Origin: Natribaculum luteum
GTDB taxonomy: Archaea > Halobacteriota > Halobacteria > Halobacteriales > Natrialbaceae
Length of the DNA stretch: 64,000 bases
Direction of reading: 5' to 3'
Assembly (NCBI RefSeq): GCF_023008545.1
Contig: NZ_CP095397.1
Span: forward strand, 1,426,001-1,490,000
Shown here: in pieces, positions 16,383-57,818 of the stretch
How positions within the stretch are numbered: the first letter of the stretch is position 1
Layout of the letters: every line of letters begins with the position of its first letter
Program-made: the position numbers and the translations under genes
Notes under the pieces: generated by a model
What the model saw: only the letters and a program-made list of their open reading frames with translations
Database searches by the model: none
Told to the model about the DNA's origin: nothing

Positions 16383-16957
16383 GAATGCGGCGGGATCATC
16401 GGGATCGTCTCGATCTCCCAGCCCTCGAGCTGTTCTCGGTCCGTCAGCCCATCACCGGTCGTGTCGATCCGGGCGGGGTGGTGTTCGGCGTAGATGACCC
16501 ACGCGTGCAGTTTCGTCTCGTTGTCCTCCTGGAAGACGCGATAGTTGATGTCGACCGTCTCGTTGTCGCGGATGCCGTCGCCGCTCGTATCGAGGGCGAT
16601 CGGATCGAGCTCGAGTGACTCACCGACGACGTCGACGTCCAGTTCGACCGACTTCGGCCAGCCGCTGGACACGGAGACCACGTGACCGGAGAACTGGTGG
16701 TCAGTGTAGTCCTGTGGCTCGTCTGGATTGGGCTTGATCCCGACATCGGTTTCGACTGCCCGTTCAACGGCAGTCGGCAGCGCTGGATAGAAATCTATCT
16801 CACAGCGTTCGCCGATTATTGACTCGGAAGCGTGCATGTCCGGGTCGAAGCACCCGAGCTCGACAGACGCCGCCTGCAGGACGACCCGTTGTTCGTAGAT
16901 AGTTCCCTGATACTCACAGTGTGGGGGGATATCTACGATATTTGCCTCGATCGCCAT
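16379..16957 (-). CDS. Chimeric protein: unknown N-terminal domain joined to a TSP3-like fragment of the neighbouring toxin gene
   Basis: The 192-aa product has two parts. Residues 1-105 (MAIEANIVDIPPHCEYQGT, CEIDFYPALPTAVERA) resemble no family I can name. Residues 106-185 (ALDTSGDGIRDNETVDINYR, HHPARIDTTGDGLTDREQ) carry two calcium-binding TSP3/EF-like DxSGDGxxD motifs and are almost identical to a segment inside the pseudogene at 17552-20206. The underlying DNA, 16411-16631, matches 19555-19775. The protein stops eight codons after that match ends in EGWEIE. It has no signal peptide. It looks like a product of recombination between cassettes. Expression is possible: an AAATAAGG box lies about 27 nt before the ATG and the downstream gene overlaps it. 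Confidence 0.6.
   Translation of the reverse strand: MAIEANIVDIPPHCEYQGTIYEQRVVLQAASVELGCFDPDMHASESIIGERCEIDFYPALPTAVERAVETDVGIKPNPDEPQDYTDHQFSGHVVSVSSGWPKSVELDVDVVGESLELDPIALDTSGDGIRDNETVDINYRVFQEDNETKLHAWVIYAEHHPARIDTTGDGLTDREQLEGWEIETIPMIPPHS
16411..16631. repeat. 221-bp direct repeat, copy 1 (partner at 19555-19775)
   Basis: The stretch aligns without gaps to 19555-19775 (offset 3144 bp), with roughly 15 mismatches by hand count, about 93% identity. Both copies encode the same TSP3-like toxin segment on the minus strand. Mismatches cluster at the 16580-16625 end. Confidence 0.85.
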
Positions 16958-17552: not shown

Positions 17553-20206
17553 CAGATCCACCCCTCGTTCCATTTTTCAACAGCAGTTCCAGTCTCAGGA
17601 TATGCTGTTTCTATTGATCCATCCTGTTTTACCACGACGCGCATCCGTTCAATTCCTTCTTGAGGGACCGGCGTAAGCATATATTCTGTTTTCCCGATAG
17701 CACTACCACCCGAGGAGTCACCGCTTTTAATAGCTTCGTAGATTAGGTCATCAATTTCGTTTGTTGTCATTTTATTTGGTAATGTTTTCCCCTCTATTTT
17801 TTGACCTACTGGCCAGAAGCTTGTTATTCCATCTTCAGAGACTGCATCTTTTCCCACTCCCTGGATATGGCGTTGTTCAATATGTCTCCATCCAAAGTCA
17901 CTAGTGCCCTGTTCAAGCCATCTTACGTCACCATCTCTTTTTACGATAACATTCGTTCCATGTATATTTCCTTCTTCGGCGACGTGAAGTATATTGGCTG
18001 GTTCCAGATCAGGATCAATATTTCGGTATTGGCGTGCATCAGTACCACGATTGACGTAGACATCTGTCATCCGGTTCGTCGTCATCTGATCCTGATCGAG
18101 CAACCGACGCACATCGCCTGCAGTGTCCAGTTCATCGACGAACGCCCGTGCCGCACTCGGATCCGAGCTCTTCGAGAGGCGTGCCGCGAGCGCTGCCTGC
18201 TCGCTCGAGGACAGGTCCTCGAGGTGACGCAGGTCCTCGTCGAGGTGGTCGAAGGCACGCTTAATGCCGCCGGCGGTATCGATACCGTGATCGTCACGGA
18301 GGTGTCGCGCCACAGTCGGTGCATCGACGTGTGGTGTACCGCCGTCGGTGACGATCCGATACGTGATTTTTCCGGTTGTCGTCTCCGGCCCATCGAGCTG
18401 ACGAAGACCTCGAGCGGTGTCGATGTTGTCTCCAGCGTCGTCGAGTACGTGGCGGAGGTCGTCGGCACTCGAGACGCCTTTCAGCGTACCCTTCGATCCG
18501 ACGAGGAATTCGACGACGAGATAAGTGGTGTACCCCTCGTACCAGCCCGCGGCGAACTGGCAGTAGTCGGACGTGGGTTGATCGTCGTCGAGGTACTGGT
18601 CTGTACAGTACGTGACGTCTCCAGTCGGTGAACCAGTCGGCGACTGCTCCGGATTGTCTTGTGCCTGGGTTCGGTGGACGTTCGCACCCATGTTTCGCGC
18701 AACCTGAACCCAGAATTCAGCGTCAGATCTGGTGGGGTCTTGCTGGACTGCAAGGTACTCCTCGGTGAACGCCGTGACTGCCTCGGCCAGTTGCTCGGGA
18801 TCGCCGACGAGCAACCGAACGAAATCAGGGACCTCTGCTGCACCGTGCGTAAGTCCCGAAACAGTGCCGAGATCCCGCTGGTCCATCCAGGAGTATTCGG
18901 TAGCTACCCTGCCGGCGATCGACCGTTCGGTTTGGACGATCTCGGTACCGGTGTTTCCGACCGCATCTTCGGTCGTTACATCGGTTTCTGCCCCACGGAA
19001 CTCTGTCAGTACTCGCTCGCCTTCGGCATAAAACGAGATATCGCCCTCCCGAACGGGCGAGACAGATGGATAGGTTTTCGCGAACTCCGTGACTCCAGAT
19101 TGCTGTAGTTCGACACGGTCGACACCAAGTGAATCTACCACGAGGAGATCGAACTCGTAGACGTAGCCAGGCCGGTCGACATCAACCGACGGGGTCTCGA
19201 CCCCGTCCCACCCGACACTGAAACCTCCCTCGACGTCGAGGTTGCCTTTGGTCAGCCGGCGATTAAACTCGAGGAGGTGTGCTTCAGGCGGTGTCGTCGT
19301 GAAGACTGTCGGATCTTCCTCGGGACGATAGAGTGCCTCGACGTCGGAAATGCCGTCGGCGACCGTAGCGGTGCGTTTGGGATCGGTGCCGAGGTCGTGT
19401 TCCTCGAGGTCGGTTAGTCCGTCACCGTTCGTATCGGATACCAGTGGATTCGCAGAGACGCTCCGCGAGTCGAAATACGAGGACGTAGCACGATCATCGT
19501 CTGAAATGAGCGGTGCCATCAATTCTTGTGCATCTTCGTGATCGTCGACGACCTCGATCTCCCATCCCTCGAACTGTTCTCGGTCCGTCAGCCCATCACC
19601 GGTCGTGTCGATCCGGGCGGGGTGGTGTTCGGCGTAGGTGACCGACGCGTGCAGTTTCGTCTCGTTGTCCTCCTGGAAGACGCGATAGTTGATGTCGACC
19701 GTCTCGTTGTCGCGGATGCCGTCGCCACTCGTGTCCAGCGCGATCGGATCGAGGTTCAGCGGTTCGCCGACGACGCCGGGTTCGCCGGTCGGCATCGCCA
19801 GGTCCATCTCCGCAACCCGGTCGGGAATGCCGTCGCCGTTGGTGTCCTCGAGGTCGACGCCGGTCTGGTTCTCGGCGACCCGCTCGAAGGTGTCGGGCAG
19901 GTCGTCGGCGTCCTGGACGTGATAGAAGTCACCACCGGTAATGCCGGCGATCTCCCGGAGTTCGTTCTCGTCGATGCCGCCGCCGACGCCGATGGTGCTG
20001 ATCTCGACGTCGCGCTCGGCGGCCGTTTCGGCGATACCGATCGGGTCCGGTCCACGATTGGTGTAGCCGTCGGACAACAAGATGATCGTCTGGGAACGGT
20101 TGTCCCAGCCGTTGCGCCCGAATTCGCGAGTGCCGCCTGTAGCACAGAACCCGTATTCGTCGACCTGCAGGCGTTTAGATCGTCGATGCTCGAGGTCGGC
20201 CGAGCG
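17552..20206 (-). pseudogene. Truncated and frameshifted VWA/TSP3 surface protein with a C-terminal nuclease-like toxin domain
   Basis: From 20080 downward there are 842 open codons starting in the middle of a von Willebrand A domain (LLSDGYTNRGPDPIG, ISTIGVGGGIDENELREIAG). TSP3-like repeats follow (DTNGDGIPD, DTSGDGIRD, DTTGDGLTD, DTNGDGLTD), then about 450 residues without recognised domains. The final about 130 residues contain GWRHIEQRHIQG, TSFWPVG and a terminal GSIETAYP. That pattern resembles BECR-fold RNase toxins (family knowledge; not proven). In 20081-20206 the preceding VWA piece (STNTGSVLQAALA) is in frame +1, while FGRNGWDNRSQTIILLSDG is in the downstream frame, so an indel separates them. 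Nothing further upstream survives: the GATase stop is at 20207, so signal peptide and MIDAS motif are missing. The 3' part is AT-rich. Confidence 0.75.
19555..19775. repeat. 221-bp direct repeat, copy 2 (partner at 16411-16631)
   Basis: This is the copy inside the toxin pseudogene, same orientation as copy 1. It encodes the first two intact TSP3-like motifs after the VWA remnant. It is probably the donor, because its flanking sequence continues into a longer TSP3 array while copy 1 is cut off. Confidence 0.85.
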
Positions 20207-27956: not shown

Positions 27957-28172
27957 AGACATTTTTGCCATCACGGTGGCGATTCCCGGAGACGCGTCTC
28001 TGCCGATCTCGAGTACCTACCGTTCGAGAAGTAGGTAGTACCTGCCGTCGAACGTCGGTCGACGATCGAAAATACGGCCAGACCCACTCGAGTCACCACG
28101 CCGTCGAACTACCGTGCTGACGTCCCGTCAGCGAGGACGGAGAACGTACCCTGCGGGCGATCCACTCTCTTC

Positions 28173-28256
28173 GTAACGCCTGCTGTCCGTCGTTCTCGGC
28201 GCAACCGCCGGCCAGCTTGCGGTTGCGCCGAGAATAGGTACAGCAGGCATTATCAC
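28173..28256 (-). repeat. Dispersed palindromic element, copy 2
   Basis: Left arm TAACGCCTGCTGTCCGTC, right arm GGTACAGCAGGCATTATCAC, with central stem TCTCGGCGCAACCGC and GCGGTTGCGCCGAGA. TCA in the right arm is the stop codon of the minus-strand gene at 28253. It is the most regular copy, with a stem of over 25 bp. The rest of the gap after ferredoxin (27957-28172) shows only a T-rich terminator. Confidence 0.85.
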
Positions 28257-28417
28257 TCGGCGCGGTCGACGTCGACCTGCTCTTTGAGCGCCTCGAGCCC
28301 GTCGGCCTCGGCGAGTTCCTGCAACCGCTCGCGGAAGTGTTCCTCACAGAGACCGACTCTGATACCCTCGGATTCAGCAGCGAAGGCGGCCTCGCGGTCG
28401 CAGTAGTGGCAGTTCAT
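28253..28417 (-). CDS. Small conserved haloarchaeal protein with N-terminal CxxC (DUF6757-like)
   Basis: A 54-aa protein read directly from the sequence: MNCHYCDREAAFAAESEGIR at the N-terminus, VGLCEEHFRERLQELAEADG in the middle, and a helical KEQVDVDRAE end. The cysteines C3, C6 and C28 with H31 could bind zinc. I believe it belongs to DUF6757, a family of this length in haloarchaea, from memory only. The ATG at 28417 is followed by good coding bias. Its stop codon lies inside the right arm of a palindromic element. Function unknown. Confidence 0.75.
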   Translation of the reverse strand: MNCHYCDREAAFAAESEGIRVGLCEEHFRERLQELAEADGLEALKEQVDVDRAE

Positions 28418-28484
28418 ACCATTCCATAGTTGGTGAACCGGTTTGAACCCTCCGCTATCGGACGGCGCTACCGTCAGGCGTGGG

Positions 28485-28606
28485 TATAGTGCCCGGTGAA
28501 AGTCGTCGCGTACCCGATCACGAACATCGACAGCCAGCCTCGGTCTCGTTACCGAGGCTGGCCGCTTGGCTGTGATCGGGTGTAAATCGTTTCAACGGGT
28601 ACTATA
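28485..28606. repeat. 122-bp nearly perfect palindrome (MITE-like)
   Basis: Ends are TATAGTGCCCGGTGAAAG and TTTCAACGGGTACTATA. Inside, CCCGATCAC pairs with GTGATCGGG and CAGCCAGCCTCGGT with ACCGAGGCTGG, around a 6-nt loop CTCGTT. The pairing covers almost the whole length, with small bulges. It contains no ORF. The right end overlaps the stop codon (TAG, 28602-28604) of the PHP gene. Confidence 0.85.
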
Positions 28607-29372
28607 ATTCGAGCCGTCGGTACGCCGCCTCCGAGAGGCCGGCGAGGCCGAGTCGATCGTCGTGGGCGTCGCTGCCGCCGGTGACGAGCAGTCCGTTGCG
28701 GTCGATCGCCCGCTCGATCGGTTCGCAGTCGACGTCCCGGTCGTAGGCGTAGTGGCGTTCGACCGCGTCGAGGTCACTCGTTAACTCGAGTGCGCGCGCC
28801 GGGTCGCGGTACCGCAGCGGGTGGGCGAGCGAGACGACAGTGCAGGCCTCCGAGAGGACGCGTCGTCCTCGCTCGAACGACGGGACCTCCTGTGGTACGT
28901 AACAGGGCTCGCCGAACCCGATGAGCTGGTCGAACGCGTCCTGGTAGTCGTACCCTGACTCGGGGTGGTCGGCGATCGCTCGCGCGACGTGTGGCCGGCC
29001 GAACCCCGGCTCCACGTCGACCTCGAGATCGATCCCCAGCCGATCCTCAACGCAGTCGACGATCGTGCGACCGCGTTCTTTCCGATTTCGCTGGACATCT
29101 TCGACCGTCCGTTCGAGCGCAGCCGTGGGTGTGACGCCGTAGCCGAGCAGGTCCACCCGATCACCTTCGGGAGGCTCGACGCGGAGTTCGATCCCGTGGA
29201 CGATCGTCACGCCGTCGCGCTCGACGACCGGGTCCGAGAGCGGCTGCAGCCGATCGTGATCTGTGAGTGCGACGACCGAGACGCCGGCGCGCCGCGCCGC
29301 GTCGGGGACGTCCTCGAACTCGAGCGTGCCGTCCGACCGGGTCGTATGGACGTGGAGATCGGCGTAGGGCAT
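28602..29372 (-). CDS. PHP domain metal-dependent phosphoesterase
   Basis: The 256-aa protein starts MPYADLHVHTTRSDGTLEFED, with the first PHP metal motif HVHTTRSDG at 7-15. Other metal ligands appear in VALTDHDRL (residues about 34-42), GIELRVE, RPHVARAI, SLAHPLRY and a C-terminal GGSDAHDDR. This is the layout of YciV/RNase AM-like PHP proteins, which hydrolyse 3',5'-nucleoside bisphosphates or short RNA. The substrate here is unproven. Start at 29372 is set by the motif position. Its 3' end is overlapped by the 122-bp palindrome. Confidence 0.9.
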   Translation of the reverse strand: MPYADLHVHTTRSDGTLEFEDVPDAARRAGVSVVALTDHDRLQPLSDPVVERDGVTIVHGIELRVEPPEGDRVDLLGYGVTPTAALERTVEDVQRNRKERGRTIVDCVEDRLGIDLEVDVEPGFGRPHVARAIADHPESGYDYQDAFDQLIGFGEPCYVPQEVPSFERGRRVLSEACTVVSLAHPLRYRDPARALELTSDLDAVERHYAYDRDVDCEPIERAIDRNGLLVTGGSDAHDDRLGLAGLSEAAYRRLEL

Positions 29373-29494
29373 GTTCGTCTCGAGCGTCGGACACCGTATA
29401 GCCGTTATCACTCGAGCGTGCTGTCACGGCCCATTCTAGGACGATTAAGGGAAGAAAGGACACTCCCAGTCCTAAAGAACGTCTATGGACAATG

Positions 29495-44075: not shown

Positions 44076-44159
44076 CATACCGTCTGCTGTTCGTCAGTCC
44101 CGGCACACTCGCCGGACAGTTCGGGGGTTTCGAGAAACAGGGAACAGCAGGCAGCATCA
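44076..44159 (-). repeat. Dispersed palindromic element, copy 3
   Basis: Left arm TCATACCGTCTGCTGTTCGTC, right arm GGAACAGCAGGCAGCATCA. The inner part has CCCGGCACACTCGCC and GGACAGTTCGGGGG, a weaker stem than in copies 1 and 2. TCA at the right end (44157-44159) is the stop codon of taw2. Confidence 0.8.
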
Positions 44160-57729: not shown

Positions 57730-57818
57730 TCATACGGTCTGCTGTCCCTCGTTTTCGCAGCGACCACCCGCCGGGACGCGGTCGCTGCGGGACGGACGTC
57801 CAGCGGTCCGTACAGGAT
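57730..57818 (+). repeat. Dispersed palindromic element, copy 4
   Basis: Left arm TCATACGGTCTGCTGTCCCT and central stem CGCAGCGACC and GGTCGCTGCG match the family. The right arm (CCAGCGGTCCGTACAGGA) is diverged. It lies between the divergent TPR and thpR genes, and the TAGCTTCAAGG just after it is where the thpR promoter is expected. Confidence 0.75.

Follow-up and report, generated by a model that had tools for sequence, protein, structure and literature searches.

The window, that is, the whole 64,000-nt stretch of DNA that was analysed, carries a PHP-domain gene and, downstream of it on the same strand, a DUF6757 gene. Between the two lies a 122-bp palindrome that reaches into the 3' end of the PHP gene (Table 1). 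Read in frame, the gene enters the palindrome as GAA TTA TAG and takes its stop codon from it.

Table 1 Features of the PHP-DUF6757 locus, of the 122-bp element and of other repeats in the window and its genome
Feature	Position	Strand	Remarks
PHP-domain gene	28602-29411	-	TAG stop at 28602-28604 supplied by the element
DUF6757 gene	28250-28417	-	Downstream neighbour of PHP; pair also adjoining in element-free relatives
Palindromic MITE with both TA target copies	28485-28606	+	122 bp; bounds of the first-pass annotation
Element proper	28487-28604		118 bp; boundary placed from an 84-bp relative whose empty site is exact
Putative TA target duplication, left copy	28485-28486		Placed by analogy with other copies whose empty sites are exact
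Putative TA target duplication, right copy	28605-28606		Placed by analogy with other copies whose empty sites are exact
Outer inverted repeat, left	28485-28501	+	TATAGTGCCCGGTGAAA
Outer inverted repeat, right	28590-28606	-	TATAGTACCCGTTGAAA
GTCG, degenerate GTCA box	28502-28505	+	15 nt from the end of the element proper
AAATCG box	28584-28589	+	15 nt from the other end of the element proper
Middle stem	28512-28522	+	Partner 28571-28581; DNA fold
Central 12-bp stem with 6-nt loop	28533-28562	+	Loop 28545-28550; extra hairpin of the 122-bp subfamily
Third family (TACGG..CCGTA), copies	2693-2771, 28174-28252, 44078-44156, 57733-57812		Exact 3-bp TNA repeat at 2693 and 44078
Second family (TACT..AGTA), many copies	Loci L241-L264 and L296-L325		Own genome; mostly 107-108 bp
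Direct repeat	16409-16634, 19553-19778		226 nt, 93% identical

The first-pass annotation had described a near-perfect palindrome with the ends TATAGT and ACTATA, a 6-nt loop, no coding capacity and an overlap with the PHP stop codon. The coordinates, ends, loop and named arms were all recovered from the sequence and its fold. The stop codon, on the minus strand, does fall inside the element end, and 122 bp leaves no room for a transposase gene. The hairpin is far more stable than shuffled sequences: the DNA fold of positions 28480 to 28611 has an energy of -39.9 kcal/mol, the shuffles average -18.0 (z -9.0), and none of 200 shuffles folds as well. Near perfection, in contrast, did not hold: the palindrome is imperfect and gapped, with ungapped arm matches at 28 of 61 positions overall and at 15 of 17 in the outer part. 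Its small size, the missing transposase gene and the terminal inverted repeats are those of a MITE.

Occupied and empty sites at the PHP-DUF6757 junction

A matching PHP region was found in 30 genomes. Of these, only the window's own genome and the other genome of its genus (G001) have the element at the junction, G001 at the same site. Joined by one TA, the window flanks gave an alignment spanning the junction for 12 of 28 loci from outside the genus (66-76% identity); no such alignment was obtained for the remaining 16. BLAST of the element against these 28 loci found no copy at the junction, and the single match (G021) lies more than 1 kb away from it. The restriction to two genomes of one genus indicates an old insertion that has been inherited. 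The emptied site of the window copy reads GTAA and not CTAG, and a base-level alignment with relatives was unobtainable. An insertion beside the PHP stop codon in the ancestor of the genus would have provided the new in-frame TAG, and the window copy has since been passed down vertically and is probably decaying.

The location at the PHP 3' end, between two co-directional genes, would also suit a terminator or a regulatory 3' structure that is conserved with the PHP gene, and the minus-strand RNA of the element folds strongly as well (z -9.1; 0 of 200 shuffles as good). Such an origin is nevertheless very improbable, given the 12 aligned relatives without the element at this junction and the absence of any BLAST match there in the 28 loci. 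Moreover, copies elsewhere occupy unrelated sites, and between the two genus members the element diverges more (about 87% identity, 4 bases missing) than the surrounding 1351 bp (94%). Rfam gave no match on the element; two matches within 28000-29000 lie outside it and far under the gathering scores (E 0.058 and 0.79). The element is thus neither unique nor merely a PHP 3' UTR, the two outcomes that the first-pass annotation had set against mobility: 2 of the 30 PHP regions are occupied, 12 relatives align empty and copies exist elsewhere. A 3'-UTR or terminator origin was rejected on the empty junctions and the scattered copies. A secondary effect of the hairpin on the PHP-DUF6757 mRNA is possible.

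Related copies and their target sites

A DNA search of the window's own genome returned no further copy of the 122-bp element. Matches at E 0.01 were obtained in 20 of the 61 genomes searched, the own genome included. At least 14 full-length copies, 80-87% identical and with the same ends, lie between unrelated flanks in one of these genomes (G021). Several copies at unrelated sites, as in a MITE, are thus found in relatives, and one by DNA search in the own genome. Many other genomes match over part of the element only, mostly its end, and such loci usually hold an 84-bp sister form. Among 125 distinct two-ended elements in 187 loci, 94 measure 84 bp and 12 measure 122 bp. The ends of the 84-bp form occur 62 times forward and 65 times in reverse in a single genome (G018, at most 2 mismatches; backwards control 0 + 0). 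An exact end-pattern scan of named genomes returned 75 stretches, in haloarchaea only (Natrinema, Natronorubrum, Natronosalvus, Natronolimnohabitans and others). Plasmids carry the family as well: 54 of 72,556 records match the 84-bp form (E up to 1) at 284 places, and 48 cover at least 80% of its length. The family has spread in the past. Of the many near-identical copies expected at the outset, the number was borne out by related copies in other genomes; near identity to the 122-bp element and further own-genome copies by DNA search were not.

A covariance model was built from 55 elements and applied at E 1e-4 to 194 sampled genomes of the class. It matched in 84 of these genomes and in 29 of 65 genera, the per-genome counts being lower bounds. 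Its sole match in the window is the element at the PHP junction. At E 0.01 the own genome gave 35 rows, corresponding to 34 places; 29 of these were classified besides the window element, as 7 TATAGT-type copies, 20 TACT-type copies, 1 TACGG-type copy and 1 partial match. Since 20 of the 29 have TACT-type ends, the model is not specific to the TATAGT family. What the census records is a palindromic repeat class, a second related family included, that is widespread in haloarchaea.

Copies of the 84-bp form can be very similar within a genome. In Halomicrobium mukohataei (G098, named by its coordinates), 16 copies were compared, with a median of 1 and a maximum of 3 mismatches in 84. In four orthologous pairs shared with G147, 2 of 336 element bases are changed versus 51 of about 1600 flanking bases; this contrast was set aside as evidence because the copies were chosen from the best-scoring matches. 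In another genome (G020; L061, L063, L064), paired 84-bp elements lie a few bases apart with N between them, either as tandem copies or as an assembly artefact.

The insertion could be read exactly in a Halomicrobium coding gene, which is interrupted by the 84-bp form in G098 and G147 and uninterrupted in Halomicrobium sp. LC1Hm (G087). Each of the two interrupted genes is longer by a net 82 bp, and hence the sequence TAGT...ACTA went into a TA that was doubled in the process. A further copy is nested in another repeat; at the corresponding position, 4 of 6 paralogous repeat copies have a single TA. The first-pass annotation had pointed to empty sites and target duplications as a check; empty sites were found in the 12 relatives at the PHP junction and, exactly, at the orthologous site in Halomicrobium, where the 84-bp copy has a 2-bp TA duplication. 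For the family, then, the duplication is TA, as read from related copies. The TA is preceded by C at 86 and followed by G at 90 of 124 element sites. CTAG is present at 67 of 129 element sites versus 21 of 1076 TA sites of the window (binomial p about 4e-78, the sites not being independent; the 124- and 129-site sets differ by filters). A preference for CTAG within a TA target is that of a MITE mobilised by IS630.

Two pairs of loci share site and flanks between two species. In L340/L372 the elements have opposite orientations (6 mismatches as reverse complement, 33 forward), from either inversion in place or independent insertion. In L349/L404 the elements are of different subtypes (16 mismatches, with matching changes at both ends), so that either one site was used repeatedly or one element replaced the other.

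The 122-bp hairpin is best read as a gene-less mobile element of the TA-inserting kind that is now decaying. The non-autonomous mobile element proposed in the first-pass annotation is supported by the related copies, the empty sites, the TA duplication and an IS630 element with matching ends.

Putative partner transposase and alternative movers

IS630-family elements of 1056-1059 bp in several genomes have the same ends as the MITE, which provides the transposase with matching ends that had been looked for; ends in common with an autonomous transposon are a further MITE feature. Domain searches with both ORFs of one copy gave matches to HTH_33 and related domains, to DDE_3 and to the NCBIfam IS630 model, and the catalytic ORF is 90-91% identical to annotated ISNma7 and ISNpe3 (plasmid relatives). 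Eight distinct IS630 end 13-mers were compared with 96 MITE ends: 4 are identical, 2 are one base off and the others are 2 and 4 bases off. As controls, 2 of 1750 other TA 13-mers came within one base, and random bases behind TATAGTA were identical in 44 of 5000 cases. C before and G after the element were seen in 8 of 11 distinct IS630 copies, three of the 11 having degenerate ends. In the own genome, all 4 matches to the ISNma7-type transposase are partial or contain stops, and the best one has a broken first ORF. The 21 DDE_3 matches of this genome include IS630-type transposases of other groups, and a TATAGT end was found in 1 of 6 extracted loci. On plasmid pNMAG02 of Natrialba magadii, ISNma7 apparently lies inside a MITE copy (L218:945-2003), with C before and G after it.

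A cyanobacterial relative of IS630 is described as inserting at TA in vitro and duplicating the TA, and a preference of IS630 for CTAG is named in the title of a reference in the same paper (PMC2170065). Very probably, the element is a now decaying MITE that an IS630-family transposase of the ISNma7/ISNpe3 group, acting in trans, moved by cut and paste. A Tc1/mariner-type enzyme of this family, supplied in trans, would recognise two sites, the 15-bp ends and the box just inside them. By analogy with the IS630 relative, it would then cut and paste the element into TA, with a preference for CTAG, and leave the TA doubled. The window copy itself was presumably moved by an ISNma7-type transposase, of which the copies found in the own genome are broken.

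The distribution of this transposase counts against its role as the mover. At E 1e-40 it was found in 41 of 194 genomes, 25 of them with model matches; 59 of the 84 model-positive genomes are without it, and 16 genomes have the transposase without model matches. The two sets of genomes overlap modestly (odds ratio 2.5; Fisher p 0.013 with kinship uncorrected), and the co-occurrence table is rough because the covariance model also matches the second family. Among element-rich or recent-copy genomes, an intact partner transposase is present in some and was not found in others. Five genomes with at least 23 model matches each and scores above 100 bits (G216, G075, G036, G009, G087) gave no DDE_3 gene at E 0.001, and Halomicrobium mukohataei has DDE_3 fragments only, despite its near-identical 84-bp copies. 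In element-rich genomes without intact DDE_3 the mover may have been lost, transient or another one.

Such genomes would suit a mover other than IS630, be it another transposase that reads the inner boxes or a single-strand mechanism acting on the hairpin, as in REP or IS200-IS605. Covariation across the whole hairpin points in the same direction. In 55 elements, 12 of 24 pairs are changed on both sides versus a shuffled mean of 8.8 (reached by 7 of 500 shuffles), 5 of the 12 in the inner helix, and 114 covarying cells compare with 35.1 after shuffling (0 of 500), a control that related sequences can inflate. The compensatory changes in the inner stem exceed what recognition of inverted ends needs. 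The boxes GTCATTG and TAAATCG stay mismatched in most copies, and the arms are therefore not simply copied onto each other. The opposite orientations at one site in two species would also fit a different mover, as would the recurrence of the inner box in families whose target duplication differs. We nonetheless regard it as unlikely, since the TA duplication is that of the IS630 relative studied in vitro (PMC2170065) and MITE-type ends flank IS630 genes in several genomes. IS605-type elements are, moreover, described as having neither inverted ends nor target duplications (PMC3119063). Assignment to IS200-IS605-type elements or PATEs fails on the inverted ends and the target duplication found here.

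Other palindromic families and known systems

Two further palindromic families were compared with the TATAGT family. In the second, an exact 3-bp TNA repeat was found at 20 of 34 distinct own-genome sites, a 2-bp repeat at 5 and a 4-bp repeat at 0. Its end motif TACTRCYGGACAA occurs 94 times forward and 91 times in reverse in the own genome (at most 1 mismatch), against 15 + 21 for the reversed control. Aligned to the core of the first family, the second-family core scores 30; the best of 2000 plain shuffles scores 26 and the best of 2000 palindromic shuffles 28. The third family, 78-80 bp long, is the other palindromic family of the first-pass annotation. Among 31 candidate pairs, chance and overlapping ones included, 14 have a 3-bp direct repeat (13 TNA), 2 a 2-bp and 0 a 4-bp repeat.

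The three families have an inner box in common. GTCA lies exactly 15 nt from the end of the element proper in 106/124 members of the first family, 28/31 of the second and 7/14 sampled members of the third; the corresponding counts for ATCG at the other end are 112/124, 11/31 and 4/14. In these counts the better orientation was taken, and the first-family set was gathered with a filter on the ATCG arm. Second-family copies found by their ends alone have GTCA at 15 nt in 18 of 19 cases (11 of 12 outside model matches), and at the other offsets from 11 to 24 it occurs twice in all. A similar box is located at the same place in the IS630 right end (ATAATTGCTCAC). The element had been called unrelated to the other palindromic family; the ends do differ, but 7 of 14 sampled members of that family share the GTCA distance, and the window copy itself reads GTCG.

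A scan of 421 sequences, made up of the window and the loci, found no long end pair that could represent an autonomous partner of the second family and, for the third, three weak pairs of a chance-like kind. Plasmid searches with the consensuses of both TNA families showed no transposon ends among the matches listed (23 of 23 records and 40 of 145), which comprise whole elements and short or unrelated matches. The three families may tentatively be viewed as one modular system, in which ends and target duplications differ and the asymmetric inner box is retained at 15 nt, although we consider this somewhat less probable than not. In such a system, either a hitch-hiking core could swap its ends and thereby its transposase, or related transposases could all read one inner box, with divergence in the cleaved tip and in the target step. 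Differently ended families around one fixed-distance box make it testable how short elements exchange or share their transposases.

The proposed mechanism, that of an IS630-mobilised MITE, is ordinary, and no description of the TATAGT palindromic family was found in the open-access literature searched. The unexpected part is the inner motif at a fixed distance across families with unlike ends and target duplications. The elements provide precise insertion marks, can bring hairpins and stop codons into genes, and favour CTAG.

The bacterial Correia, ERIC and RUP elements have TA-type ends, and RUP is linked to IS630-Spn1. Compared by description, they resemble the haloarchaeal MITE in being short, with inverted ends and many copies, and differ in their bacterial hosts. 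Correia and ERIC are described as prokaryotic MITEs (PMC10969869).

Within haloarchaea, the MITEs and small mobile repeats (SMRs) of Haloquadratum walsbyi are likewise short repeats without a transposase (PMC3119063). The SMRs match the present elements in size (80-110 bp), prominent inverted repeats and high copy number, and some copies of the present family also lie inside other repeats. As far as they are described there, however, SMRs have neither a target duplication nor a transposon with related ends, both of which exist here. That the element is an SMR is therefore extremely improbable, and this assignment was rejected on the TA duplication and the IS630 element with shared ends. Some Haloquadratum MITEs are reported to have moved although an intact transposase was not found (PMC3119063), a mobility to which the near-identical copies without an intact transposase in Halomicrobium mukohataei can be likened.

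The closest comparison is with ISNma7 of Natrialba magadii and ISNpe3 of Natrinema pellirubrum. At about 1059 bp, with a two-ORF transposase and an interior that is not palindromic, they are unlike the MITE. They share with it the TATAGTA ends (the first 13 bases being identical in several pairs), the TA/CTAG target and, 16-27 nt in from the right end, a similar box that agrees at 9 of 12 positions by eye.
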